DNA from: Phallus indusiatus
Lineage: Eukaryota; Basidiomycota; Agaricomycetes; Phallales; Phallaceae
Assembly (NCBI GenBank): GCA_027605045.1
Contig: JAQFWX010000022.1
Location: forward strand, 186,001-250,000
Direction of reading: 5' to 3'
Length of the DNA stretch: 64,000 bases
Shown: piece after piece, positions 1,598-47,021 of the stretch
How positions within the stretch are numbered: the stretch's first letter is position 1
Layout: each line of letters begins with the position of its first letter
The notes under the pieces: generated by a model
The model's input: only the letters and a program-made list of their open reading frames with translations
Told to the model about the DNA's origin: nothing
The model's database searches: none
Made by a program: the position numbers and the translations under genes

Positions 1598-1607
1598 ACT
1601 ATCAGGG

Positions 1608-1763
1608 TGTACGTACAACAACAGACCGTTCGTATGGACGCCGTTGTTGAACAAGTGCTTTGATTCAATCAAAGCACTCACGCGAAAGGCTCCTATCTTG
1701 AAGCCTATTAACATGGACGACCCAGATCCAATTTGGGTCGTAACCGACGGCTCTAAATGTGGC
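1608..1763 (+). pseudogene. Gypsy pol fragment: end of RT and start of RNase H
   Basis: One frame reads as the RT-RNase H junction of a Ty3/Gypsy polymerase. It has the connection motif PFVWTP, then an APILKP segment, then the RNase H start WVVTDGSKCGV with the first catalytic Asp. The frame is in phase with the remainder of RNase H at 1938-1989 and after 7896. Protease and the RT palm are not in the window: to the left lie foldback repeats. The fragment contains a 12-bp inverted repeat around 1654-1678 and a 7-bp stem at 1718-1740, like the rest of this element. It is a broken, non-functional piece. Confidence 0.75.
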
Positions 1764-1935
1764 GTCAGGGCCGCACGCCGCGTCGTCGTTTTATGTATAT
1801 AGTAGCTGTACCTAGAGTGAGGGTCCCTAAGCTTGTTCTCTTAGGATCCCCTCCCTCTAGGTGAGTAGTTAGTTTCTCCCTCAATATATTTACTTAGGAT
1901 CCCCTCCCTCTAGTGTGAGCTGAGTAGCCCTAACA
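1764..1935 (+). repeat. LTR fragment embedded in Gypsy pol
   Basis: Bases 1764-1935 align closely with 12141-12313, the 3' part of the downstream LTR, and end at the same CCCTAACA. Upstream of 1764 the similarity stops. The fragment sits between the RNase H start (TDGSKCGV) and the next RNase H motif (CRPAGF), where a short piece of pol coding sequence is missing. I read it as an LTR fragment that replaced part of pol by recombination, or as a truncated LTR insertion. No target duplication is visible. Confidence 0.75.
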
Positions 1936-1937
1936 AC

Positions 1938-1989
1938 ATGTAGGCCAGCAGGGTTTCTCTCGAAGAAATTCACCCCTGCGCAGTACAAC
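1938..1989 (+). pseudogene. Gypsy RNase H fragment left of the hAT insertion
   Basis: The frame reads CRPAGFLSKKFTPAQYN, a conserved RNase H stretch of Ty3/Gypsy elements. It would continue in frame at 7897 if the hAT element and one copy of its 8-bp target duplication were removed. This shows that the hAT inserted into an existing pol gene. Bases 1982-1989 are the left copy of the target duplication. Confidence 0.8.
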
Positions 1990-2165
1990 TAAGGGTGTAC
2001 ACGATTCCGGATCTTTTCACAGATCACACGGATTAGAACCGCCAAAAGAGCCGTCAAACCTAGACTCGTTTCGACGGATCTCCGGCGCTTAAAATACCCG
2101 CCGGATCCGGGTTTGGATTTTTCAAAAGTGCCGGATCTCCCGGATTACCATAAGGACCAAGAAAG
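1990..2165. repeat. hAT left subterminal repeat region
   Basis: Next to the terminal inverted repeat are several copies of a CCGGATC/GGATCC-like word (for example near 2006, 2080, 2102 and 2135). The right end has the same words. Subterminal repeats are the usual transposase binding sites in hAT elements; that role is inferred here. Confidence 0.6.
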
Positions 2166-2220
2166 CAAATTTTATACTGTAGCACAATTTAATCAGCTGT
2201 ACAAGTTTACATTTTTATAT

Positions 2221-5017
2221 CTAAGACTGATCCTCTTCACTGCTATCTGATGCTGCATTCTCTTCATTGATCCTACCATTCTTGGGTCGAGCTTGCTTGC
2301 TATCAAAGATCTTAATTAGTTTTTCTTCTGGAATAAAATCGCAGTTTTCGAGCCATGAACTTAACACGGTTGCTGAGCGAGTGGTTGCATCGGATAGGGA
2401 GTGACGGGTCCTTGACACAGTCAAACGGCCGCGCGAAAAGGCCCGCTCAACGTCAGTTGATGCCGCTTGATGTATTGTGTCAAAAAAGAATGCATGGAAA
2501 AAGTTGTAAAGTCCACATACCTGGACATGTCAAAAACTGAAGGGCCATTGGCGCCAGCGGGTCTCCAGCTTGTTGCAGAGCCTGCCAATACATAATAGGA
2601 CAGTTCACGGATATAATCGGAGGACTTGAGACATAGATTTCGAATGCATCAGCATCTGTCTGATCCAAATCCATGTCTGAGAAATACGAGACCTATTAAA
2701 AGTGTTAATATAGAATGAACGAGAAATGAACTATTTACCTGTGAAGACTGCCTCGTAATTTCATTTTCCTTCTTAGGTTTGAAGTGGGCCAGCCATTCTT
2801 CACGCGCAAGGTCGATGGCAGTCTGAATCCAAACCTCGGGCCACTTGGCGGCATGAAAGTAGGCGATCTTTCGCCTGGGATGCATGACTATCAAGTGTTA
2901 ATATAATATCATTGATCAACGGAAGATAACTTACTCATGGCAATCCGATAAATTATGGAATCATCAGTTAACCTGTAATACTTATTCATAATCGTGAGGC
3001 CGCGATTGCTTGCGATGCGTACAGCAGGATGTAGGCTCTTATTGTCGATCCAATTTTGTAGGGACTCCGTCAGTTGATCGATGAGAGGAATAACGGAGTG
3101 AACTGAAGGATAAGCGGAGCGAGACATAATATTGGTCGCTTCAAGAAAACGCTATAGAAGAAGCTGAGATATATATATATAGTGCAGGCGTTGAATTAAG
3201 GACTCACATCTAACAAAGGTAATAACTGTTCAAGAATGTTCCATTCCTCCTCATCTAAGGAATAACGGCGAAGACGGGAACCTTTGTTGCGATTGTGGAC
3301 TGCAAGATCGACCAAAGAATTCAACGCCGGTCGCAATTCTAACGCGCTCTTGATGGTCATTGTCAAGGAGTTCCACCGCGTCGCCACAGGACGAACCAAG
3401 ACACGGAATGGGATTGGAGGCTCTGCTCGCGCACACTCCTGTTCCAATGAATGCCGGATCGTCGGAGAATGGAATACTGCTTTAGCAAGTCCTTTAAGCT
3501 AATCCGGGTATCAGACTGATGTTTACGAATAGATGAAACATCCTACCTTTTCAACAGCGATGCAGGCTTGCCTAACCTCATCAGCGTTTGCCTCAACTTC
3601 CTCTTGAGCATTGTCTTCTTCCTCAAGCTTGTCAATGATGGCTTGATCAGCTATATCGCGGCCGTCATCCTCGTCCTCGTACTCGGCTATATCATCTTCA
3701 GCGTCTTTGGGTGCCAGGATTTCTTTGAGGGCTGATGCCGTCTCAGGGTCCCTGTTATAGGCTTTCTTGGGCGCGAATATCGATAGAATCCCCTAGCAGA
3801 GATATAAGACTATGCCTAGAACAATGAAACAAAGACATACCTTCACAACCAGATTGAGAACATGGGCTGCACAACGGACGCGCAGCGTTGACCCTCCCCA
3901 GTCCGGAATCCGAGTGCTCAAGGATGCTATCATCGTATCATTGTTACTAGCGTTGTCGCAGACGATCCCAAGTAGCTGTTGCAACTAATATCAGCATGAG
4001 AATTATATAACGACTGAACTAATATTACCTTCGTTGTGAGATGATAAGTTTCCAACGTGTGAGCAAGTTGCTCCGCCAAATAATGCCCGTCGTGAGCTCA
4101 AGTAAGCTTGATGAAGTCGAGGATGATGGTCTTCATCTCTCCATTGTGGATGTAATGGATTGTCAATCCTAAGAACGAATAGACGTTTGGGGAGGTCCAG
4201 CCATCGATGCCGATATGAACTTTCCCCTCGTAGCTCTGAAAAAAAAAACAGATTCAGTAGGGAGCTTCAAAGCGAAAAAAAAAACAAGGGCATGACTCAC
4301 TTCGAAATATGCTTGTACTTCAGCCTGGCAAATACCAAAAACCTCTAGAATGTCTCTAGAGATTGTGACGCGGCTTGGGACCTTCACTCGACAGTCCAGC
4401 ATTGTTAGAATCTCCCCGAGTTCCTTATCCTCGACGATCGCGAAGGGCCGGTAGTTCTTCACGACCCATTTCGTCAGGAGCAACCGGAAGCGGCCAACAT
4501 TGTAGGTTGAGCCATGTGCAAAGGCTTCTAAGGCCGTAGTGGATGGATTGACTTCGTGTTCGCAGGCAACTGCGTGGTGACGTAGGTTGGACGTGCTGTC
4601 TTCAATACGATCTCGACCGATGACAATTGAAGGGGATCTAAACAAAGTGTAAGTTGCTTGTACGTTGATAAATCTGTTACGAGCTCATGTTTTGCATCTG
4701 AATTTGTAAATTACGCGGTCGCATCCGTTCAAATTCGTTTTCACTTCGATCTCAGGCGGCAGGGTATAATGTTCATAGAACTTGCTCGTCCAATTTGTCA
4801 TCTGCAATTCTTTAGATGCCCGTTAGTAGAAAAAACATGATAAGACGTTAGAAAACTCACTCAAAACCTCTTCAGGAGAATTCTCATCTGTCCTGAAGCG
4901 TTTGTTGAAGCGCTCTTCCGCGACTGATCTTTTTTGCTGTTTGCTGGCTGACGAATTTGAGCGAGATGGATTGAGAGCAGATGAAGAGGAGGATGAAGAG
5001 GTCTTGTTACGAGCCAT
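2221..5017 (-). pseudogene. hAT transposase (multi-exon, one in-frame stop)
   Basis: Minus-strand exons between 5017 (ATG) and 2221 (TAG) read in order as: a Ser-rich basic N-terminus; a segment with LLTKWVVKNYRPF and PSRVTISRDI; the RNase H-like core start (GIDGWTSPNVYSFLGL, near 4190); LLGIVCDNASNNDTMI with RCAAHVLNLVVK (near 3900); an acidic insert (near 3650); VATRWNSL (near 3350); and a C-terminal hAT dimerisation region (ITRQSSQ, PIMYWQALQQAGDPLA, then RHSLSDATTRSATVL). These are standard hAT motifs. Introns are short GT..AG. An in-frame TGA at 4098-4100 falls just after the DFIKLT motif, where relatives read through, so I call it a pseudogene unless a small intron removes it. It lies wholly inside the hAT ends. 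Confidence 0.85.
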
Positions 5018-6216
5018 TGACAAACGCGAGCGATAGCAATTGAGAGATTAGTAGATTGGTGGGGTACACGGAAAAGATGAGAGACGGGTGAGATGGGCTA
5101 TATCATATTTTGCATGCGTTTAAAAACTCACCTAAACAAGAAGGGTAATGTAAGAAACAAATCAAGAACAACAGTGACAGATGTACTTACTATTAACAAA
5201 GCTTTTTGACTTCGTTTACTCGATGTTTGTGAAAAAACAAACACGATGATTAAGGTATTAGTAAGCTTCGCTTTGTGCCGTTCCATGTAAGTCCCATATT
5301 CGGACAAATGTAGGAAAATAATAATTACCTACATTCATAAAGTCAAAAGTCAGATAATATTAGAGGACGTCAGCGATGTTGAGGTAGACTGACCGTGTAG
5401 ACTGAAGTTAGTACAAGAACACGGCCATTTGTTGGTCCAACTAGGAGGGGGCCTTAATCCAAATAAATGTGTGTGCAAATGAACGCAGGTACAAGTTGGA
5501 GTGAGTTGTTTTTTTAAACCCGGTTTGACTCCAGATTGAGCCTGAGTTCGAGTGTGCGTTCTTACAAAACGGTGATTGCTGACAGCCTTCAGAGTCCGCT
5601 GAGCGTTGATTGCAGTTGCTCAATAGAACACAAGGTTAGACAAATTTAATCAACAAAGTCTTCTCGATGCTGAGATAAATACGGTATCTGACCTGTTGCA
5701 CCACGAAGTCATAATTGTTTTTGCTCTCAATTTTGACCGTCAAGCTCCCAAATTATGAGACGTCCCAAAGTCAAGTTATGCCGCTCAGAGTCATCAGCGT
5801 TGCTCCTAAAAAACAAACGTTCAAGTAAGCCAGCTCATGTTCTTATATAGGTAAAAAAATAGGTTTAGATTCTCATCTTTTGCACTGTGAAGCCACATTA
5901 GTTTATTGTTTTTGATTCAGCCTTCAACCCTCTCCATGGTTGAGTTAATGAGGCGAGATCCGGCAATAAGGGTTGCTGAAGAGTTGCAGTGATAAAAACA
6001 AGGTCAGAGTGTTCTGATAATCAGGGTCATATAATATAAATCATGGCGTTATATCTAAACTATCGCATTACGCACCTGAAAATACGATATGAGTTTGGAA
6101 ATTATTTTTCAAACTGTTACGATCATAGATGGGACTCAGACTCATTCCGAGACACATACTGGATCCGGATTTACCATCTCGGATCTCAAGTTCTGATAGT
6201 ACGTATTTATTACATG
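5018..6216. other. hAT interior without recognisable gene
   Basis: This is the stretch between the transposase start and the 3' end of the passenger gene. I see no convincing coding sequence, only short open stretches without family motifs. A GGATCCGGAT word near 6160 matches the subterminal motif of the element ends. It probably contains the transposase promoter. Confidence 0.5.
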
Positions 6217-7366
6217 TCATGCACATAACAGATCCCACGGATTAACTCCTAACTCAGCGAAGTATGCAAGCTCTTTACCGAGCGAACCCCTGGCTTCTTT
6301 AGTGTATACAGCCACAAACAGTCCACCCTTGCCACCAACTCGATCGTTACCAGCTCGAACGAAAATCGGTGGCATTTCTTCTCCTTCTATTACATGAAGA
6401 GTTAACCACCCTTTAGATGTCAACTTACGTAGGTGATCCACGAAGCCACCATACTCGAATAGACATGTCCCAAACCATGCATCGGACAAACGACGGTACG
6501 CGTTGAAACACTGTTCCACTGTGAGTAACCGCGGTCGACCTTTTTCCTGTACAAAATCCGGTCCTAAAGTTATCTCCTCATATGCACAAATTGCATGCCA
6601 TCCCAGCATGTGGACGATCACCAGGATGAAACGACTTTGGAATGGCAAGGCGACGAATTCATCGAAGACACGTGGGTATCGTTCTATGTTATAAGGCGGC
6701 TCGTCAGAAGCAGGTTTCAGGGCGTCGTATAAACCTAAACAGTAAGTCTAATATCTACTATAATTGATGTTTTACCTACCGGTTCCTAACAATTGGTCTA
6801 GGAATTCTTGAAAGGATCCAAATGTTCTTTGCTGCACAAGGATTCCATCAAGATCGGACGGGTCTGGCAACCAAATGTCAGCGAAAACAATTTCCGGGTC
6901 GCACGGAGATATTTTGTTGTCTGCTTTCTTTATGCGCTCTTCCTTCAACATTCTTAATAATTGTAGTGACGGAAATTCAAAGGTGCGTACCATCATTTCA
7001 AGGAACGTTGCCAAGTTTTCCTCAAAAATCACAGCCGCGGGGCTATCTGCACAGTACGTCGTCGTTGGTGGAGTGCTTGGCCCATCCTTCCGAATGATTG
7101 CCCGCATCAATGGTGGTTCTCCATTCACGTTGCAGGTTGTTTCATCGGTGAATTCTTCGGGTTGATAAATAGCCCTGTGAGTCTTTTTTTCTTCTCGCCA
7201 TTGCCGTTGCCTAATCAAATTTTCTTCGTGCCGGCTGGTGTTTTTTGAGTTAAAAATGGACACAGACGGTTGAGACTCTGGTCTCTCACCTCAGGTAACG
7301 CTCCCGACGCTCTGCACGTTTTCTGCGAATGCCCTTTTTCTTGGATGGCAATTTGGAATTAGCCAT
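6217..7366 (-). CDS. hAT passenger protein, unknown function
   Basis: This is a second minus-strand gene inside the hAT element. I infer three exons: about 7366-7290 (starts MANSKLPSKKKGIRRKRAERR, strongly basic, possibly a nuclear signal), about 7229-6774, and about 6735-6217 (ends WDLLCA, stop). The two introns have GT..AG borders and join in frame; the second is about 40-50 nt with 5' GTAGGT. The product is about 350 residues, with a basic N-terminus and a globular C-terminal part that includes a hydrophobic stretch (SRFILVIVHMLGWHAICAYE) and an Arg/Gly loop. I do not recognise a domain. It is not transposase-like. An open three-exon gene in an element whose transposase is broken makes it the best-preserved gene of the element. 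It could be a captured host gene or an accessory transposition protein. Confidence 0.65.
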
Positions 7367-7689
7367 GGAATGGAGGAAGGAGGTTAGTCAGAACAAACTC
7401 TTTACTACATGCGCCCGACTGATTTTGCAAGATTTGATGATCGGATTGAGTTTGAATACAGTGGTTCGTGTTCCTTGCAGTTTCTGCCTCTTTGTGGACT
7501 CACGACAACTAGGTATAATGTTCGACTTTTACAATAAATATTAATGTGGATAATAATAATGATAATATAAAAATAAATAGTCTTTATTATTTAAAATTAA
7601 ATATAAATGATATATGGTGGACATTGGACTCCTGAGATGCATGCACACTATGCTGCATGTCCTGTTGTGTGAAAAACGAGAATTAAATC

Positions 7690-7888
7690 AAATTTTGAAT
7701 GCCGGATCCAGGTATATTATCGTGATCCGGATCCGTCTGGATCCGGACTACAGACCTGTTGACCCGGATTTGTTGACCTGGATCCGTGTGGATCTTGACC
7801 TGTCCGGATCCAGGTTTGAATTTCGAAGAAAAAAAAACCTGTGGACCTGGATCCGTAAAACCTGGATTCGGAATCGTGTACACCCTTA
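7690..7888. repeat. hAT right subterminal repeat region
   Basis: Dense GGATCC/CCGGATC words occur here (about seven between 7700 and 7865), partly arranged as short tandem and inverted copies. They mirror the left end and adjoin the terminal inverted repeat. They are likely transposase binding sites by analogy with other hAT elements. Confidence 0.65.
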
Positions 7889-7896
7889 AGTACAAC

Positions 7897-9963
7897 TACC
7901 GCACCCATGAGCATGAGCTCATCGTGGTACTTGAAGCCTTCCTCAAGTGGGAAGACAAACTACTAGGGCGAAGATTCACCCTAGTAACGGACAATGAGGC
8001 CATGGTCCACTTCAAGACCCAGCCTCGCATGTCACCGCGCCAAGCACGGTGGTATGAATACCTGTCTCGCTTTGATTACGAGACGATTCATGTCAAGGGC
8101 GTCACTAACAATGTCACCGATGGCCTCTCTCGTTATTACGAAGAGGACACTCCGGATGAGGTTCACCCTCCGGAGGTATACGTCAATGCTGACGTTAGAC
8201 TTGATCCCGAAGGGGATCATCTTCCCATCGAAAGAAGGGATGAAGTGAGAGTGACCGTTATTACACGTTCACGAGTACGAGAGGAACCTCGAGTAGAAGG
8301 TCCCTCAAATACTATGCCTTCTGATATTACAGAAGCGCAATCCGATGAGGATATACTTGCCCTAAGTGCAGAGCAAGACAGCAAGCTTCTTAAAGCCAAA
8401 ATTGAGGGCTTTGCTGAATTTACCTCGCTGATACAGCAAGGTTATCACAAGGACCCAGTATTTAAGCTGGTCCTTGCCAACCCAAACGCTCACAAGGCGT
8501 TTGTAATTAAAAACCAACTGATCTTTACCAAGAATCAGTTCCTCCGCGACGTATTATGCGTCCCCCATAACGCATTTTACAAGGGGAGGAGGATCACTGA
8601 GATTATAATCAGTGAGGCCCACCAAATTGTTGGGCACTTCGGACGTTACAAAACGTCTCAGTACGTTAGACAAGCGTACTGGTGGAAATCGATGATTGAA
8701 GACATCGATACGTTCTGCAGATCCTGCGGAACGTGCCAGACCAATAAAGGGGAGAATAATCACCCCAGTGGTCTGTTAAAACAACTCCCGATTCCCAATA
8801 GACCTTGGGAATCAGTTGGAATGGACTTCGTCGGTCCATTACCCATTTCAAACGGCCACGACTTCCTATTCGTCGTGATTGACAGACTGACCTCAATGGT
8901 TCGTCTGATGCCAACCACCACCAAGCTGACCGCCAAGGGCACAGCCTGGCTATACCTCAGTGAAGTCGTAAGACTCCACAGTGTCCCTGACTCAATCGTG
9001 AGTGACAGGGATGCACGATTCACTGCCAAGTTCTGGCAGGAACTACAATGCCTAATGGGGACACGATTGCTCATGTCCACGGCGTTCCATCCGCAAACGG
9101 ATGGATCTACCGAGCGAGCAAATCGCTTGATTGGCCAAATACTTCGTTCCGTGATACAGAACGATCAAAAAGATTGGGCCGAAAGGATCCCAATGGTGGA
9201 GTTTGCTATTAATAGCAGCACCAGCGAAACCACTGGTTTCGCGCCGTTTGAACTCAATTACGGCTATCTTCCCAGTTTGGGAAGGAAAATTGAGACGAAC
9301 ACCAAATTCAAAGGTGTTCAACACTTTGCTCAACAGGCAAAGTGGAATCTCATGATAGCGCACGACGCTATCATAGCCAATCGCGTTAAACAGGCTCACT
9401 ACGCGAACAACTCATGGCGCGATGCACCGGAGTACAAAGAGGGTGACCTCGTCTATCTGTCGACGAGGAATCTCAACCTCCCCAAGGGGAGAGTTAAGAA
9501 GTTGATCCCGCGTTATGTGGGACCATACAAAATATTGTCCGTTAAAGACAATATCACAGTGAAACTTGAGCTCTCTGAGGAGCTCAAGCAACGTCGCATA
9601 AATCCCGTATTTCACGTGGATTTGATTAAACCTCACATCGCCAATGACGATGAGAGATTTCCACGCCGCGATACACTCACGGCGTATGACTTTGGACAGC
9701 CAGACGATGCTGAATGGCACGTCGAGGAACTCCTAGCACATCGCTGGAGTGGAACTCGCGAGAAAGACCTCGAGTTCCTAGTCCAGTGGACCCTTGGGGA
9801 TACCACTTGGGAACCTTACAGTAACTGTAAGGACTTGCAAGCTCTAGACGAGTACTTGCAATTACGAGGCGTAAACGAGCCTCGGCAGCTGCCACGACTA
9901 TCCAATCACGGAGAGTCGCGGACCAACAACAAGCGCCCAGATCCCACTCGGGGATCTGCTTGA
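7897..9963 (+). pseudogene. Gypsy pol: RNase H, integrase, chromodomain (5' cut by hAT)
   Basis: This is an uninterrupted frame from the hAT border to TGA at 9961-9963. In order: the rest of RNase H (HEHELIVVLEAFLKWE, LVTDNEAM, VTDGLSRY); an acidic/basic linker; the integrase HHCC zinc finger (H..H..CRSCGTCQ, near 8620-8745); the integrase core with D,D35E (GMDFVGPLP near 8820, SDRDARF near 9000, STERANRL near 9110); the GPY/F-type C-terminal module (PRYVGPYKILSV); and a chromodomain (EFLVQWTLGDTTWEPY, near 9770-9810). The chromodomain places it among chromoviruses, which use it to target integration to heterochromatin. The frame is open but separated from the RT, so it is presumably inactive as pol. 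An upstream ATG within the hAT end (7786) gives a spurious fused open frame. The coding sequence is full of local inverted repeats (see findings). Confidence 0.9.
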
Positions 9964-10098
9964 AGATCCCACCCACAGGGATCCACTGGCACTTCACTGC
10001 TACGCGGTGAGGTAATTTTCACTTGGGCGCTCCATGAGGCCGCCCAAGTATATAACCCAAAAGTCCGTTCACGGCCTTTTTCTCCCTCAACACCCCCC

Positions 10099-11838
10099 AT
10101 GCCTGACAGCAAGGGAAAGCAACGCGAACGATCACGCTTGCGGTCGCCTACGCCGCAACCTGTTAGTAGGTTCAGAAAAGCAGAGGCCCAACTGGCCCTG
10201 CAAAGGTCCGAATGGACCTTAGACGCGATGGACGGATGCATATCCGTCTATCATAACAATGATAGTTGCACCGCGTGCAACGACTTTGCCAGTCACCTGG
10301 CAGGCCCCGCTGGCAGCGGGGCAATCATCCTTGACCATGATATGGTCAAGCAGGCCGTCTACAAGGCCTTTCCCTTCATAAAGAGGGAGTACTATCATCT
10401 AGACGAACGTCTAGAAGAAGCTGAAAAGGATGTCAAGTCCTTGACAGACCACCTCGACGATGCGAATCGTCGTATCTGCGAGCTGAAAGCTCGCATTGCT
10501 GAACTTGAACGTTCAGCGTCGACGGCAGGCCCGTCGACTACCCCATCGACCTCCAAAAAGTGGTCGAGAGACCAGGCCGATAAAGCGCCTGAACCATCCC
10601 AGGCAGCCCCTTTGCCTGATATCTTCAACGACATGGAAGACATAGTCGATGATAACGACTATGATGACGACGCCTCCATCGCGTCGTCCACCAAACGCAA
10701 GCCTCAGCGTACCTACGCTGATGCAACCAAGGCATCGGGCTCTCGCGATGCTGCCCCGGTTTCTCCAAGGAAGCCCTCTGGTCCGTATCCACGGACCAAG
10801 CCAGGATGGGACTCCAACAGGGACCCATGGCCCTTCTTCGTCAAGGGCTTCGACCCCACTGTTAGTGGGGATCATTCTCTGGTGCCTGGCACCCCCAATC
10901 CTACTGCATGGTATAACACCTGCAGCCTCGACGAACCATTGTTTGTCGAGATTGGAACCCGGGTTTGGACCGACCCCCCGGTGTTCACGTACCCCGATGA
11001 CAGAGGGGTTCACATGCGTATTTCATACGCATGGACTCGTTGGCACAGATCCATGAAGGAGCGCCGCCTAGCGAGGAAAACAGCCAAGCTTGAAGCTATG
11101 GAGGCTGCCGCCAACCGTCCACCGGTGGTGTTCATCTCGGGAGAATTAATTCACCCCGAGATCAAGTATCTAATCAATACTTGGAACGCGGACCCTAACC
11201 AGGTCCCTCCCTACATCCGACTAATGTCGGATGGATCTTTAAACCCTCAGGATGTTGAGGTGTTTGCCTGGCTCAAGAGAGTCACACGTACTCGTGAAGT
11301 ACGTGCCAAGTTTCTCGAGAAGGCGGCTGAATGCCTCCTCGACCCCGCACTTACTGTGTGGGGAGAAATCCTCGGTGGTAGGGGTAATTCCTCCACCCAC
11401 CTGCCTTCCACTCTTATGGAAGGCTACACTCGTGCCTTCGAGTGTAAATCCCCCTCCTCCATTACCATAGAGGAGGTGATTCGCTCCATGCATGCCAATG
11501 GAGCGACGACAAGACGCGTCACTGAAGTGATCGCGCCCCTTCTCCAACGTTACGCCAATGGAGAAGATGTCAATCGCATCGCGCATGACTATCGCGTGCG
11601 CCGTGGACTGGATCGTCCAACAAAAAAGGCGCGTACGACTCAGTCGTCCGCCCCCGCCGTTCATGCATCGGCATCACCTGCCAGTATCGTGGCAGGCCCG
11701 CCTAACAAGGTCTACTCCCCGTCCGTCCCAATTCAGATGACGGACGAGGAATTGTTGAGGCCCCCTGAGGACCTTGACGCACCGCATCCGAGTGCCTCGG
11801 AGAGCATGGAGATTGACTACAGCAATCCCTCTGACTGA
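10099..11838 (+). CDS. Extra Gypsy ORF downstream of pol (unknown, coiled coil)
   Basis: This is an intact 579-residue frame between pol and the 3' LTR, with ATG 135 bp after the pol stop and a 9-bp hairpin (10021-10049) in the gap. Visible features: a basic Ser/Arg/Pro-rich start; a Cys pair CTAC near residue 57; a heptad coiled coil at about residues 95-145 (LEEAEKDVKSLTDHLDD onward); a Ser/Thr/Pro linker with an acidic run; a globular middle rich in W/P/Y (residues about 225-330); and a helical C-terminal part ending in a Lys/Arg patch and an acidic tail. No signal peptide or membrane segment is seen, so it is not a classical envelope despite its position. It may be a Gag-like structural protein in an unusual order or an accessory protein. 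I do not recognise the family. Confidence 0.7.
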   Translation: MPDSKGKQRERSRLRSPTPQPVSRFRKAEAQLALQRSEWTLDAMDGCISVYHNNDSCTACNDFASHLAGPAGSGAIILDHDMVKQAVYKAFPFIKREYYHLDERLEEAEKDVKSLTDHLDDANRRICELKARIAELERSASTAGPSTTPSTSKKWSRDQADKAPEPSQAAPLPDIFNDMEDIVDDNDYDDDASIASSTKRKPQRTYADATKASGSRDAAPVSPRKPSGPYPRTKPGWDSNRDPWPFFVKGFDPTVSGDHSLVPGTPNPTAWYNTCSLDEPLFVEIGTRVWTDPPVFTYPDDRGVHMRISYAWTRWHRSMKERRLARKTAKLEAMEAAANRPPVVFISGELIHPEIKYLINTWNADPNQVPPYIRLMSDGSLNPQDVEVFAWLKRVTRTREVRAKFLEKAAECLLDPALTVWGEILGGRGNSSTHLPSTLMEGYTRAFECKSPSSITIEEVIRSMHANGATTRRVTEVIAPLLQRYANGEDVNRIAHDYRVRRGLDRPTKKARTTQSSAPAVHASASPASIVAGPPNKVYSPSVPIQMTDEELLRPPEDLDAPHPSASESMEIDYSNPSD

Positions 11839-11886
11839 TTACAGTCAGACGCCTCCTCTTCGCGATCCCATGACTTGGAGTCCAAG

Positions 11887-11900
11887 TCACAAGGGGAGGA
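11887..11900 (+). promoter_or_regulatory. Polypurine tract of the Gypsy element
   Basis: A purine-only run (AAGGGGAGGA at 11891-11900) lies directly before the LTR start TGTAACGG at 11901. This is the usual position of the plus-strand primer in LTR retrotransposons and supports the orientation of the element. Confidence 0.75.
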
Positions 11901-12313
11901 TGTAACGGATCCACTGTCAGGGTACGCTACCGCGTCCCCTCATTTTTCCTCATTTATTATCATCGGTATATATTTCCCTCTACTTTATTTATATTTCCCA
12001 TATATTATCTTCACCCTCCGTTTGCTCCCTCTGTCTCTATTCCACTTTCTCTACTCGCGCGCGTCGTGCGCTCGTACCCGGCGTGACGCCTACGGCGTCA
12101 CGTCGCTTATGTTCGGTTTGGGCGTCTGGCACTTAGCTGTGTCAGGGCCGCACGCCGCGCTATCGTTTTTCATGTATATAGTCGCTGTCCCTAGAGTGAG
12201 GGTCCCTAAGCTTGTTCTCTTAGGATCCCCTCCCTCTAGGTGAGTAGTATAGTTATCGTCCAATATAGTACTTAGGATCCCCTCCCTCTAGTGTGAGCTG
12301 AGTAGCCCTAACA
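11901..12313 (+). repeat. 3' LTR of the Gypsy element (413 bp)
   Basis: It begins TGTAACGG after a polypurine tract and ends CCCTAACA (TG..CA). Its last 173 bp recur at 1764-1935. It contains a 9-bp stem with 3-nt loop at 12082-12102 and a duplicated CTTAGGATCCCCTCCCTCTAG word. The flanking duplication cannot be tested, because the 5' LTR is not in the window. Confidence 0.85.
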
Positions 12314-12623
12314 TCCACCGCATGCAGTGGACCGAGTATATGCCACTTAGGCATATGCAGAGGGCTTCGCCCTCTGCAGTAATTACTATTATTACTTCTA
12401 ATAATAGAGGCGCTTAACGCCTCTGGCTCGCCATGACGCGGCGAGCCATTATGTAATAACTGTACATTAGTAGTAGTTACGCGCGTGCTGATTCAGCACG
12501 CGCATTTTGTTTTTACACCATAATAATACAGCACCCTTGGTCTGTTATATTGGTGTGAGGACTACAGCGTGATAAAACTTGTGTACCGTACGCGGTACAC
12601 TATAAAAAGTAACGAAACGTTAC
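12314..12623. repeat. Non-coding array of perfect hairpins after the LTR
   Basis: There is no coding sequence, but successive inverted repeats: 12338-12356 (7-bp stem), 12356-12378 (10 bp, 3-nt loop), 12406-12424 (7 bp), 12424-12448 (9 bp), 12481-12503 (10 bp, 3-nt loop), 12581-12600 (8 bp, 4-nt loop) and 12609-12623 (6 bp). The texture equals that of the Gypsy internal region, so this may be the leader of a second, truncated tandem copy of the same element. After 12623 the pattern ends. Confidence 0.7.
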
Positions 12624-13236
12624 ACTGACAAGCCTGCTGGTTCCACTCCCATGATCCCAACAGCGACAAGCGTCTGACGAGGCTGGAGGCCTTGGTAAAA
12701 ATACTTGCTATACTTCAAGTTGGCAGTAAAAGGGCGTATCTATCTGGCTTTATTCAATAAATTCAAAGTCGACATATCTGCCAGTAGTCAATAATCAATT
12801 TTCAAATTACAAGAGTCAAGACCGCCCAAGCTTGAAGATGCCTTCCAGATATCATTGCATATTAATCGCAAAAATCACGATCAAATTGTTACACCGAAGC
12901 CTCATTCAAAATTAAATGTTGATCTCAACTGCGGTACTTTTTAATTTAAAAAAGTACAACCCCCGCGAATCATGTTCTGGACTAAATGAAATCTCATAGC
13001 CTCCATGCTTCCTCTGCCAATCCATTTCAACTGCTCGAAGGTTCTGTCTGGGTAATTGAACCCCGCTGGTGATATCCGTGGTACATGCGACGCTATTGGT
13101 TGTAACACACGCGATATCTGATGTACGACACTCTCAGACTAGATGACATTCGCATAAAAAAGCCGCACTTCGAATCTAGCCGCCAGTTTCTTAACATTCC
13201 ATTTGTATTCAAAGCTTCCAACTACCAACTATCACG
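12624..13236 (+). other. Duplicated upstream region of a type A gene relic
   Basis: No gene is seen. The stretch is recognisably similar to 14,230-14,780 (upstream of A1) and, on the other strand, to about 32,020-32,300 (upstream of A4). Shared words include GGCAGTAAAA, GCTTGAAGAT and ATTGCATATT. It is a diverged copy of the type A promoter region. Confidence 0.6.
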
Positions 13237-41714: not shown

Positions 41715-43087
41715 ATGCCCATGCTCGCGGTCTATATACCTTTGTTCGAGATTTTCTATTCAAGTCAATATAGTCTACGTAAAAGATTAATTCTTATTTC
41801 CATTCATTCCTGACTAACAAAGTGTCGTAGTCGCTGGCATAACTTTACTTGTCTGGGATACTCTTCCGACCTTGGATGAAGAAGTAAGTACTTACTACTC
41901 ACCCACGGGCGATTATCACGCATTGAACTTTAGGACAGATAAGATTTATCCGGACGTATGTAGTCCTTTGAGAATAATCTTTCTTGTGGGATTGGAAATC
42001 GGAAACACCTTAGATTCAAATTTACCTTCTATATTTAACGGTTCGGTATCTTGTCCTTATGATTTATTGGTAATATGCACAGAATATTCGTCTGTATAGA
42101 TGTTTTGATATCTCTCAAGTGCAATGATTTTCGGGTCTTCGGGGGGCTTCAAACAATTTGACAGGTTTTGCCTGGCGCTACCGTGGATCATTTATTTCGG
42201 TGGCTCATTCGCAATAGCATGCTCGAACATACTACTCATACAACGAGGTGCACCTATTCATTCAATCCCATCATTAAATTAAGCCAATTGTCAGTTTATG
42301 CATTCTATGGGAGATCGAGACGCATACTTTGGATCCTGTCTTTACTCTTCGTATCGACCGAGACCGCGGTGATTGTTGTCCTTGTCCTCAATGCGCCAAG
42401 ATTTTTGACGATCCGGCTCAATTTACTACCGGCCTGTATCGTTATATTGTATTCTGAGAAAATATCCTTCGTCTTGTAAGCAGTGTCGAATATTAACGTG
42501 GATAGACCTTTCCTAATACAAGTTCTTTTAAAAGTTTCGCCGAGCTCATATTTCAAAGTCTTGCTTTTGTCTGCGTTGTCGCTCGTTTTACCAAGCTTCA
42601 CTTTCGAGCATGGAGAATAAATGTTCCATATTCTCCGTTATACATAAATTTCTTCAGAGATGGGATCTGGGTTTTACGATCTTGTTCTGTAAGTACTAAC
42701 ATCCCAAGCTCAAGTGTTCTTCGTGGCTCCAACCGCTTAATCACAGTAACCTTCCTATTGTCTGGCATTTATTTATTTATTTTTTTTTTTTTTTTTTTTG
42801 GCGGAGCGATTAGTTGTAGGGACAACTTAACGAACGAAGGGCAGTGGACATAGGTCCCCCCCAGCGTTCTAGCTAGTTTCGAGGGATCTCAACCTCAATC
42901 CAAAAAAAAGGGGTTATGGCTGGCTGAATAAATAAAAGAAACGGAAGAAAATGCAGATAGAGAGATGTTGGCCGCGAGGAAATGCCTTTACGCACACTGT
43001 TTTAGACAGTAGTGCTGCACCTGGGGATAAAAGCCAGTCTCTGTACTGCGGCGCCCGGGCGCCGGCAGACGAGATTGGTCAGGTGAC

Positions 43088-44048
43088 TGGGACTCAGAAG
43101 GTGACCGCGCAAGAGACGGCACCCCTCCTACCTGCTAAAACCCCGCTAATCGTACGTAAGTACGATCTCCCTCATTTCTTCATCATGCATTACTAGTGCC
43201 CAAGTTTTGTATGCCAGATTCGGTGGTATTGCGTCGTTGCCAAAAAAAGGGCTCGTTGATAGTGTCATGATTTGATTCATGACATCACTTCCGGTAACGT
43301 TACGTAATCCATATCCGATCATTTACCGTTTATCTCCGTAATCTTATCTCGCTTATGTCACTCACGATAAGACCTTCGCGTTCAGTCATCTCCATCAACC
43401 TCGCAACTCGAATAGAGACGCACCCGTCTCTCTTAACTCCTGGAACACCCGCAGAAAGCCCTTTCTAGAATATTCCACGCACGTTCCGGTTATGAGATCA
43501 TAGATGACGAACGTAGGTCCATGTATGCACAGCTCTCATCCCTGCACACCTCATGTTCATCACATGAGACATCATACCCTGCATATATTGATGTAACTTA
43601 CGAATCTCACGACTTGTTTGTATTTCTCAAGTTCGGAATCTATTTCGAACTGAGCTAGAATTATTTATCTGACATGTATATAAACCCTAGCATACACGTA
43701 GATAGTTCTTCAGACTTAATATCGAACGTAGTTCGATATCTCTATAACAACTCTCCTTCTCTATTCTATTCATCATTGAACGTCAAGATCTTCCCTCGAG
43801 ACTTGCAGCGACGGAAGCCATCCGTCGTTGCCAAGAGCTACATCTCAAAGCTTTCTTCATTATTGTCGAGCTTGATATCATTCAATACGAGATACAGCTC
43901 GCGGCTCTCGAAGCTCGGAACGCACATATCCGTAACATCCTCGACGAACTCGACGCTCGTGACGAACGTCAGGACAAATCCTGAAGAAGACTGTCGTGGC
44001 ACAATCTCTTATAGATTGAGGCCAAGTCCTGACTGCCGTCGATCAACA
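43088..44048 (+). repeat. Candidate solo LTR inside the LINE 3' UTR
   Basis: A 961-bp stretch starting TGGGACTC and ending GATCAACA, flanked by GTGAC on both sides (43083-43087 and 44049-44053), a possible 5-bp target duplication. It has a TATATAAACC box at about 43,677. Several short hairpins give it the same texture as the Gypsy element (for example a 6-bp stem near 43,150, a 7-bp stem at about 43,265 and a 9-bp stem at about 43,722). The boundaries are inferred from TG..CA and the flanking repeat only. Confidence 0.45.
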
Positions 44049-44070: not shown

Positions 44071-46672
44071 TCAGTGACTAAAATACATTATAGTATCTGT
44101 TACCGTTCCCGGATATCGGTACTTGACAGATAGGATGTCCTGCTGTACTCTCTTTTGGACCATGGACCGCCATTTTTGATGTATCTCCATTGGTGTAGGT
44201 GGGTCTTTTATTTCATCGTCATCTGTGACACGCCACTGACATCGTATTTTCCATATTAGATAGGCGGATTCAGAAATTAGTATTTGAAATAGTCGATTGG
44301 TGTATTTATCCGGCGAGTCGTCTTTATGGAATAGGGGGAGTCCACAGCCGAAGACTAGGCCGAAAGTTGGTTGGATCCATTCTCTATTGGTTTTCCGCCA
44401 TAATTTCTTAACCATAGACCAGATTGTTTTTTGTCCAGAGCAAGAGCATTCGAATAGAATGTGTTCCATATTCTCAGTTTTGTCGCAGCTCGGACAGTTT
44501 GCTCGTTCCTGTAGAGCCGGTATTTTTAACCAGAATTTTCCGATTCTAAATGCTCCGTGTATGGCTTTCCAGAGAAAGGTGCGTATATTGCGGTTGAGGT
44601 TCTTTGATTTGACGGATAACCAGATTGCTTCGTTTGTAGGTCTATTGCCCGAGATGTCCTCGGTCGCGTAGCGGATCTTATCAAGGTTCGATATCGTTTG
44701 GCTTCTTTTCGGAGGTGTGACTAACTCAATTAACTTTTTGTATATCAGAGCTTGTGTTGCGTATGATAGTTTCATACCATGCAGGGTGTGTTGTGGGGGG
44801 TAGTGTAATGAGACATGGTCGGGGGTGTCTTTAAGGGCGCCTTGTTCCGCTAACTGGTCAGCCGCTTCATTCCCCGTTATTCCGGAGTGTGCTTTGACTT
44901 TGGTTATTTTAGTTAAAGATACTTCGCGAGCTCTTAGCCACGCTATCAGAGGTATGAGGAGGTCTTTATTTCTGACGCCGGTCCATCCCTTATCTTCGTG
45001 TTTGCTGAGGTATCGTGTCACATTCAGTTGCGTGTATTTCGAGTCTGGATCTGGGGGTTTCTCAAAGCCAATTCGGAACCCATCATTTAAGCTGTTAGAT
45101 TTGTTAGGGAAGGGATCAAAGGTGATGCTTGTGTTTTCTTCGTCTTGAGATTGGGTGTATGGTTGGGAGAGGGGGGGCTGGGGTTCTGGTTCTTCCTCTG
45201 TGTCATCCAGGTAGGTGGGTATCCACATTTCTGGTATTTTCCGTATTATTGATCGTACAAAGCGGCAGCACGCATTATGGTGGTGGCAGTCGGGGTGCAG
45301 TTCGGCTCTTGGGTGTGTTTCGTATCTACCTAGTAAGGTAAGCGCATCCTTGATCGAGTATATTTGGTGGTTGGTGCGAACACATGTTGCTATCTTACCT
45401 TTCCAAGGGATATTTTTCTTCAGTGATATGCCGGCATGGTACCAGAGGGGCATTTTGGCTTTGGCTCCGTCGGTGATGGTTCTGGGATCTAGGTGTACGC
45501 GGTATTTCCTTGCTGTCTTGTATAACATGATTAGGTTTGGTGGTAGTGTAGAGTGGGTTGGGTGGCATTTGGGTTTCCAGTATTGGACGAAAGGGTTTAT
45601 TAAGGTGAGTCCATCATTTAAGGCTTCTTTCTGTGCATTGAGGATGAACAGTTCATCAGCTATTAGGGGCCAGCGGGGACGATTTGTTCCATCTTCAAGG
45701 TATGATTTTAGGGTCATTAGCTTGATTGCTTCATTTCTCAGGTGTATGTTTAAGATTTTCTTTCCGCCGTTCCCGAAGGTGGCGCATAGAGTATCAAAGC
45801 TTACGGGTGCGGAGGTGGGCGAGTTCCATAGGAAGTGTCGTGATAGATTATGCAGGTATTTCTCTATTTCTTTAGGCATTCCTTGCACTTTGGTCAGATA
45901 TTGTGAGCAGCCACCGACGACCATTGTTATTATAAGACGACGGCCTTCTGGTGATGGGTTGCTTTTGTCCCATTGTTGTAGTCTATTCTCTATGTTCTCT
46001 ATCCGTGGCGACCAAACCTTTACTTGGTCTATTCCGTTTCCAACGAATGCGCCAAGCACTCGCGTTGGTTCTTTATCTGCGGCAATGTGTATGTCCTGCG
46101 GTATGGGGTTGCTGAGAGGGGATAGTTTTCTTGATTCGCGGAGGCGTTCTCTGTACTCAGGGCTGCCTAACGGTATGATAACTGTTTTGTTAATGTTGAA
46201 TTTTGCGCCTGATGCTATGCACCATTGGTGTAGTATTTCTTGTAAGGTGTCGAAATTGTCGAGTTCAGATAGGAAAACGCTCGTATCATCGGCGTAGAGG
46301 CTGGTTATCAGTTTCTGAGTGTCATTTTTAATTTGGAAGCCCTGTAGGTTTGAATTTCGGATGAGATCAGCCATTGGTTCGATTGCTAGGTTGAAGATAG
46401 CGCAGGAACTAGCGTCTCCTTGACGTACTCCACGGGAAGGGTGGAAAAAATCACTAAACGTTCCGTTGATCATAACGGTTGTTTTTGCTTTGTTGTAAAG
46501 GTGTTTGAGGGTTGTGATAGTGTGGTCGGGTATGTTGAAATGTGTAAGTACTTCCCATACGTAGTTGTGTCTGATTTTATCGTAGGCTTTTTCCTGGTCA
46601 AGGCAGACAATCATTCCGTTCTCTTCCTTTAATTCGCATCTATCTATTAGTAATCTAATTAACTCGGTTTGG
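44071..46672 (-). pseudogene. LINE ORF2 remnant: RT, RNase H, zinc-binding tail
   Basis: An open frame of about 866 residues runs from the truncation point to the stop at 44071. It begins inside the RT domain (MIVCLDQEKAYDKI, then the RT block GVRQGDASS), carries the catalytic SLYADDTSVF, and continues through thumb/connection sequence. RNase H shows the HSGITGNEAADQLAEQGA motif near 44,870, and a C-terminal zinc-binding motif CPSCDKTENMEHILFEC lies near 44,470. This layout fits the Tad1-like LINE group of fungi. The first few codons of the open frame (from an ATG at 46683) come from the target duplication, not from the LINE. The frame is intact but the protein lacks its N-terminal half. Confidence 0.9.
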
Positions 46673-47021
46673 TTGTCTGGCATTTATATTTATACGGATA
46701 TGTCATATATCTCGGGCCTGTCTCTTGCCTTGTAAGATCTCAAGTAAAACCTCTCAAATACGTCGTTCGTTAATAAAATAAATGTAGATGGTCATATGTT
46801 GCTTCCAGTATTTGTGTAAGTGTGATATTCCAAAATGGATTTTCTATGCTGGTACTAGCACTGCATCCTCGCTAACGTTATTTCAGTGCACGCATTTGAT
46901 ATTGAATCTGAATTGCTCAGCGAAGAAGGACCGGGAGGTTTTCAATGGTAGATTCAGTCGCAAGCAAATTGTGCCAGCGATTTCGGTTTTTGAATCGCAG
47001 AATATAAAAACTTTGCCGTGA

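Follow-up and report, generated by a model that had tools for sequence, protein, structure and literature searches.

The nearest described counterpart of the element treated here is the genome-scale ordered RNA structure (GORS) of RNA viruses, in which duplexes are interrupted and avoid more than 14 consecutive pairs, according to the sections of the virus survey that we consulted (PMC7642675). The same sections express its strength as the minimum folding energy difference (MFED), with 7.5-10.7% for hepatitis C virus, about 15% for SARS-CoV-2 and SARS-like viruses, and 23.4% as the highest value (PMC7642675). Among long terminal repeat (LTR) retrotransposons, the consulted part of a study of Ty3 and Ty1 genomic RNA by selective 2'-hydroxyl acylation analysed by primer extension (SHAPE) describes stable patches of low SHAPE reactivity and low entropy that make up as much as about 30% of the RNA (PMC11381356). 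Here, we analysed a 64,000-nucleotide stretch of the fungus Phallus indusiatus (contig JAQFWX010000022.1, positions 186,001-250,000 of the forward strand; henceforth the window, whose numbering is used below), from a genome of 67.2 Mb in 206 contigs. It holds a fragmented Gypsy-type LTR retrotransposon, henceforth family A, packed with short perfect hairpins. We consider it somewhat more probable than its opposite that selection, acting on the single strand of the replicating element, has shaped family A into this chain of small local hairpins.

A sequence-only reading of the window had described hairpin packing across pol and the open reading frame downstream of it (ORF3), and these two parts lie as follows.

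7889 to 9963, plus strand: family A pol part with RNase H, H2C2, rve integrase, Tf2-1-like SH3 and chromodomain (Pfam; alignment to locus L031, a further family A copy).
10099 to 11838, plus strand: ORF3, 579 residues, without a Pfam match and 31% identical to the ORF3 of the sister family B.

The pol frame stays open across 7897-9960, and its rve and Chromo matches are under the curated Pfam cut-offs. We counted perfect inverted repeats with a stem of at least 6 bp and a loop of 3-12 bases. Positions 7889-11914 contain 79 stems of at least 6 bp, 53 of at least 7, 29 of at least 8 and 7 of at least 9, compared with 7.6, 1.8, 0.4 and 0.1 in mononucleotide shuffles of the same sequence, and all ten stems of at least 8 bp listed in the sequence-only reading proved perfect. 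That reading had set codon-preserving shuffles beforehand as one of two comparisons able to refute it, and the counts lie far outside their range: 37 stems in the pol part (7897-9960) versus 4.9 +- 2.3 (maximum 12 in 100 shuffles), and 37 in ORF3 (10099-11835) versus 5.6 +- 2.0 (maximum 10 in 100 shuffles). Its suggestion that the bases are tuned at synonymous sites is thus supported, within the limits of a codon-preserving null, and the hairpin chain would be built mainly through synonymous choice.

The second comparison, with unrelated elements and genes, likewise failed to refute the observation: neither the other reading frames of the window nor unrelated Gypsy elements reach such a density. 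In seven further program-made ORFs of the window we counted 0 to 4 stems each, all at chance against codon-preserving shuffles; the control ORF at 44071-46683 (minus strand, with RVT_1, RNase_H and a zf-RVT match near its cut-off) is of the long interspersed nuclear element (LINE) type and hence a retroelement control, not a host gene. Per kilobase, 26 family A loci carry 11.4-21.3 stems and four family B loci 11.3-12.3, as against 1.9-6.6 in 30 other Gypsy loci, and the pol of eight further B copies has 26-31 stems versus 4.8-5.6 in codon-preserving shuffles. Five of seven control Gypsy frames, which are 26-43% identical to A and B so that none is a close relative, are at chance against codon shuffles, and the remaining two show a modest excess (L039, 17 versus 9.2 +- 3.0; L040, 13 versus 7.2 +- 2.5). 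L039 and L040, at 26-28% identity to A and B, represent another type of Gypsy element. In the densest control locus, L059, the coding frame does not exceed chance (6 versus 6.1), and the extra stems probably come from an adjoining family A LTR. One family A copy holds 137 non-overlapping hairpins within 7722 bases, with a median gap of 22.5, and the excess falls mainly on loops no longer than about 14 bases; with loops of 15-40 bases, L031 has 67 stems where about 46 are expected. The hairpin density is real and, among the loci examined, confined to one element lineage comprising families A and B.

Predicted folding follows the same division. With 25 dinucleotide shuffles of non-overlapping 350-nt plus-strand fragments, the MFED of family A is 40.7% for gag-pol (15 fragments) and 35.7% for ORF3 (five fragments) in L031, and 44.4% for pol (five fragments) and 39.4% for ORF3 (four fragments) in the window. 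Family B reaches 8.2% in gag, 17.5% in pol and 15.6% in ORF3, while three ordinary Gypsy frames give -2.4, -5.6 and -3.6% and the LINE frame -0.6%. Every fragment examined in the two families is positive (18.5-59.4% in A, 3.5-22.0% in B). When codon-preserving shuffles and 252-nt windows were used instead, A gave 35.3 and 32.9%, B 11-14.5%, and the four control Gypsy frames tested lay between -2.6 and 8.5%, L039 being the highest at 8.5% on the plus strand.

By its predicted proteins, family A is a Ty3/Gypsy, chromovirus-like LTR retrotransposon. The L031 frame (1815 residues) matches Retrotrans_gag, zf-CCHC, RVP_2, RVT_1, RT_RNaseH, Integrase_H2C2 and SH3_Tf2-1 above cut-off and rve under it; the two Chromo matches (E 3.6e-5 and 1.7e-4) are both under the curated cut-off. 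Gag with its zinc knuckle, protease, reverse transcriptase, RNase H, integrase and SH3 thus follow one another on one strand in a single frame, with ORF3 behind them, bearing out the Gypsy identity given in the sequence-only reading. Family B has the same gene order split over more frames. A protein search of the genome with the pol part, in which 65 of 602 candidates were scored so that its counts are lower bounds, gave at least 68 matches, at least 32 of them at 88-100% identity (family A) and at least 36 at 71-73% (family B); at the DNA level the pol of A and B is about 70% identical. In the B copy L032 the LTRs are 99.3% identical, read TGTAACGG...CGTTACA and are flanked by the target duplication ACGAG, and the ends of the family A LTR are identical to those of B. 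ORF3, about 580-600 residues long, lies downstream of pol in both families (L032:7109-8917 in B), and its A and B versions have an N-terminal Cys/His pattern in common. Two protein searches found no homologue of ORF3 among the 8000 candidates scored in either. Protein relatives stand at 45-60% identity (best 120 of 1360 matches listed), and those named by organism among the matches listed come from Meripilus, Trametes and Phanerochaete, all agaricomycete fungi. At the DNA level, searches of viral contigs and genome contigs gave no relatives elsewhere. Family A thus resembles Tf2-1-like chromoviruses in its LTRs and gene content, including the weak chromodomain match, and differs from them by the hairpin chain and by an extra ORF3 with no homologue detected outside this genome.

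We next consider how stems persist, for which two hairpins of the window serve as examples.

9086 to 9105, plus strand: stem that family B also has (TCCATCCG/CGGATGGA; stem check, A/B comparison).
9532 to 9555, plus strand: hairpin for which 17 copies fall into two haplotypes (11 and 6; copy alignment).

Twelve of 53 mappable A stems coincide with a B stem, where 1.0 +- 1.0 are expected (maximum 5 in 500 codon-shuffled B sequences). These 12 stems contain 74 shared pairs, of which 7 are changed on both sides versus 0.6 +- 0.9 expected (maximum 6); this stricter codon-shuffle comparison supersedes a shift test of the 74 shared pairs (74 versus 1.6). Some stems are therefore old and covarying, and the rest turn over rapidly. 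The two haplotypes of 9532-9555 are six linked transitions apart, five of them at third codon positions; one forms an 8-bp stem with a loop of 7 in 11 of 11 copies, and the other an 8-bp stem with a loop of 5 in four of six. It is the only strong cluster of stem-preserving changes among the 17 copies. Singletons at third positions are equally common inside stems and outside (20/186 versus 54/502), and thus the inserted DNA copies themselves are not maintained, their stems decaying freely after insertion. By type, the singletons of the 17 copies in 7897-9960 comprise 22 T>C versus 7 A>G, with C>T (49) and G>A (46) about equal.

Stem length is limited, and differently so in the two families. In family A, a stem carries a further pair with probability 0.52, 0.59, 0.64 and 0.60 at lengths of 4, 5, 6 and 7 bp, but with 0.25 (16/63) at 8 bp, equal to chance pairing (0.249); growth from 7 to 8 differs from growth from 8 to 9 at p = 1.4e-5. 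In family B, the drop comes earlier: from 0.46 and 0.49 at 4 and 5 bp, this probability declines to 0.29 for stems of 6 bp and to 0.21 for stems of 7 bp. Accordingly, the coding sequence has 41 stems of 8 bp and 5 of 9 bp in A, and 59 of 6 bp and 16 of 7 bp in B. A simple single cap is at odds with the 9-bp stems of A, 10 of 16 of which reach 10 bp, and with the prominence of 10-bp stems in the LTR. Beyond the stem ends there is no excess of pairing, with outer pairs +2 to +4 numbering 27, 38 and 25 where 33, 34 and 36 are expected. The outermost base is C in 54% of 46 exact 8-bp A stems; the exact 6-bp B stems, 79 in number with four second-LTR repeats among them, begin with A or T in 79% of cases. 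We set aside a stability threshold as the cause of the cap, stem length being only weakly related to GC content (rho -0.14, p = 0.11 in A; -0.25, p = 0.03 in B). Where stems stop at 4-7 bp, the next pair could be fixed synonymously in 121 of 367 cases, a lower share than the 0.41-0.48 of shuffled controls, and thus synonymous freedom has been used, not exhausted; we count this in favour of selection.

Set beside GORS as described in the consulted sections of PMC7642675, the chain likewise consists of numerous successive stem-loops in coding sequence, most of them local, with MFED raised throughout and with stem positions that are mostly not common to relatives (41 of the 53 A stems are without a B counterpart, though the 12 in common exceed chance). 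It differs in that GORS is defined for RNA viruses and family A is an LTR retrotransposon, in that its stems are perfect and end sharply at 8 or 6 bp, as against the limit of 14 pairs (PMC7642675), and in that its MFED of 36-44% compares with a survey maximum of 23.4% (PMC7642675). By prediction, the fold excess of family A would thus surpass the virus figures that we found, in a comparison that is close and not exact, the methods being alike and not identical. We therefore suggest that the chain may work like GORS, by analogy, without filing it as a member. Like Ty3 and Ty1, it would be a case of stable local regions in the RNA of an LTR retrotransposon; in Ty3 and Ty1 these form patches, and the consulted part of PMC11381356 reports no genome-long hairpin chain.

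How did the chain arise? If selection shaped it, then gag-pol, ORF3, the spacer and the LTR would all have been drawn into small, mostly Watson-Crick local hairpins, through selection on a single-stranded form during replication, most likely the genomic RNA and possibly the first-strand cDNA. A structured transcript might avoid pairing with antisense or small RNAs, its helices being too short for enzymes acting on double-stranded RNA; alternatively, the benefit may lie in packaging or compaction inside the particle. Derived amino-acid changes, scored against those of the 120 listed protein relatives that exceed 800 residues as outgroups, are fewer in the stems of A (1/215 stem codons versus 19/451 elsewhere, p = 0.006). 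These changes, the changes on both sides of recurring stems and the third-position transitions of the two haplotypes are why we favour selection over template switching.

Several results weigh against selection on plus-strand RNA structure, or fail to bear it out. In B, stem codons show no such deficit of derived amino-acid changes (5/167 versus 18/499 elsewhere, p = 0.81). Variants common to A copies are not clearly depleted in stems (28/902 versus 83/2263, p = 0.52), a separate test of shared-variant depletion gave p = 0.11, depletion in B pol depends on the definition used (1/356 versus 39/1627, p = 0.006; 5/416 versus 35/1567, p = 0.24), and B ORF3 variants are not depleted (1/277 versus 15/1507, p = 0.49); we therefore set aside stem depletion of transmitted variants as evidence of selection, since it is not robust across tests. 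One-mismatch hairpins of A, summed over the gag-pol part of L031, the pol of the window and ORF3 of L031, comprise 34 A.C (4.1 expected), 3 G.T (3.1) and 36 others (12.1). With DNA parameters the folding excess is equal on the two strands (59.8% and 59.1%), and a smooth stability optimum would not predict stems that stop abruptly at 8 or 6 bp. A-rich loops were not used as a sign of plus-strand selection either, because base pairing by itself equalizes A with T and G with C in stems, so that the surplus A of the strand is left outside. Of the two causes offered in the sequence-only reading, selection for a structured genomic RNA thus stands as far as selection for structure is favoured, and falls short in that the G.U tolerance expected on the plus strand was not found.

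The other cause, template switching, survives best among the alternatives, and we regard it as unlikely. Here the nascent strand would fold back during reverse transcription, copy a few bases and return, so that near-hairpins are perfected as by a ratchet while protein selection purges the events that change amino acids. Template switching is able to create and repair hairpins with perfect reverse-complement arms and short loops, according to the part of PMC8794818 consulted, and the almost purely Watson-Crick stems found here are of this kind. Constant growth followed by chance pairing at 8 bp in A and 6 bp in B is what a fixed reach would give, and in this respect the length cap fits at least as well as under selection, although hardly any long stems and no residual pairing past stem ends are present, and a sharp cap is itself a departure from the published hairpins (PMC8794818). 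The A.C excess, being G.T on the minus strand, would fit annealing within minus-strand cDNA. All three codon registers have similar stem numbers, as a ratchet would give; we did not take this as proof of codon blindness, since the register with the least synonymous freedom is enriched less against shuffles. Pair orientation points the other way: the published intrastrand prediction is an excess of G-C and U-A (PMC8794818, consulted part), whereas we observed C-G in excess (314 versus 209 G-C in A, p = 0.0016; 147 versus 106 in B, p = 0.0098) and no T-A excess. The scarcity of derived amino-acid changes in A stems likewise speaks against a ratchet, and so, less clearly, do the single strong stem-preserving cluster seen among 17 copies and the five third-position transitions among the six changes of its haplotype pair.

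Somewhat less likely still, in our view, is selection on single-stranded minus-strand cDNA in place of RNA, whether for protection, compaction or avoidance of strand annealing. Selection on plus-strand RNA should tolerate G.U, whereas an A.C mismatch of the plus strand reads as G.T on the minus strand, and thus the 34 A.C against 3 G.T mismatches of A speak for the minus strand. Recent mutation does not account for this asymmetry, because stem singletons give both non-standard pair types about equally (36 A.C-type, 29 G.T-type). Yet the asymmetry is absent from ORF3 of the window itself (A.C 4, G.T 3) and from family B (A.C 5 with 3.0 expected, G.T 4 with 2.2, others 21 with 8.4), and homologous A/B stems show no wobble preference (12 G.T and 17 A.C cells). 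The DNA folding excess is as strong on the minus as on the plus strand, while RNA MFED is somewhat higher on the plus (40.7% versus 33.6%), so that predicted folding energies favour no strand clearly. Composition, low complexity or chance in coding sequence deserves practically no credence and was rejected, as codon-preserving, mononucleotide and dinucleotide shuffles all fall far below the observed counts and fold excess, and control Gypsy frames, the LINE frame and other ORFs are without a comparable excess.

Returning to selection for structure, the length cap is not accounted for by ordinary selection on stability, nor by template switching as known. We tentatively propose, with rather less than even confidence, an undescribed genome-wide design in an LTR-retrotransposon lineage: a local hairpin chain with a family-specific limit (8 bp in A and 6 bp in B coding sequence), mainly synonymous and renewed as stems turn over, whose limit would reflect a factor that measures helix length. 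Such a factor may belong to the host, as silencing enzymes would, or to the element, as its reverse transcriptase would. In the open-licence literature we found no description of a hairpin-packed LTR retrotransposon.

Alignment to L031 shows that the family A element of the window is fragmented into 1598-1766, 1935-1991, 7889-11914 and 12314-12624. Its remaining parts and the foreign sequences within it are as follows.

1598 to 1766, plus strand: upstream family A pol piece, a 99.4% match to L031 (reversed) 3723-3891.
1935 to 1991, plus strand: small family A pol piece, 5' of the large insertion (alignment).
1992 to 7888, no strand assigned: insertion foreign to the element, with inverted ends AAGGGTGTACAC / GTGTACACCCTT and duplicated GTACAACTA.
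11901 to 11914, plus strand: start of the element's own 3' LTR (TGTAACGG...), interrupted by a solo LTR (sequence, alignment).
11915 to 12313, plus strand: foreign solo LTR of an ordinary Gypsy family, TGTCAGGG...CCCTAACA, with TCCAC target duplication.
12314 to 12624, plus strand: remainder of the element's own 3' LTR, ending ...AACGTTACA (alignment; 9 stems of at least 6 bp).

The upstream pol piece has 2 stems of at least 6 bp, one of them 11 bp. As the sequence-only reading had noted, the insertion at 1992-7888 is without an obvious hairpin pattern: with 21 stems versus 12.7 expected (shuffle maximum 23), its excess is weak at most. Three of its ORFs, searched against Pfam, had no match, and the hAT named in that reading is thus a putative one. 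That reading had also extended the element to 12313 and counted a hairpin at 12082-12102 as part of its LTR. This has to be corrected, since 11915-12313 is a foreign solo LTR of 399 bases, flanked at both ends by the 5-base duplication TCCAC. Other copies of this LTR follow directly after integrase/SH3 matches of ordinary Gypsy elements, for example at C123:324154 and C159:83299. The hairpin is therefore rejected as part of the hairpin-rich element; the solo LTR has 2 stems versus 0.4 expected. The solo-LTR family is abundant, with 49 matches to its LTR core, and this copy has inserted into the family A LTR. The element's own 3' LTR (12314-12624) is nonetheless stem-rich, its 9 stems comparing with 0.5 expected and four of them being at least 9 bp long. 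Elsewhere in the window, positions 1-1597 are very AT-rich (GC 26%), and 42001-44000 has 11 stems versus 4.2 expected (shuffle maximum 10).

RNA viruses are known to carry genome-scale RNA structure, whose purpose is still debated; family A would place such structure in a retrotransposon, at a predicted strength about twice the strongest virus figure that we found in the consulted part of the survey. Two sister families of unequal strength, together with unstructured Gypsy elements in one genome, provide built-in controls, and thus the purpose of such structure becomes testable in one organism. The abrupt limit on stem length gives a quantitative clue and, if the proposed design holds true, would offer a direct handle on a factor that measures helix length.

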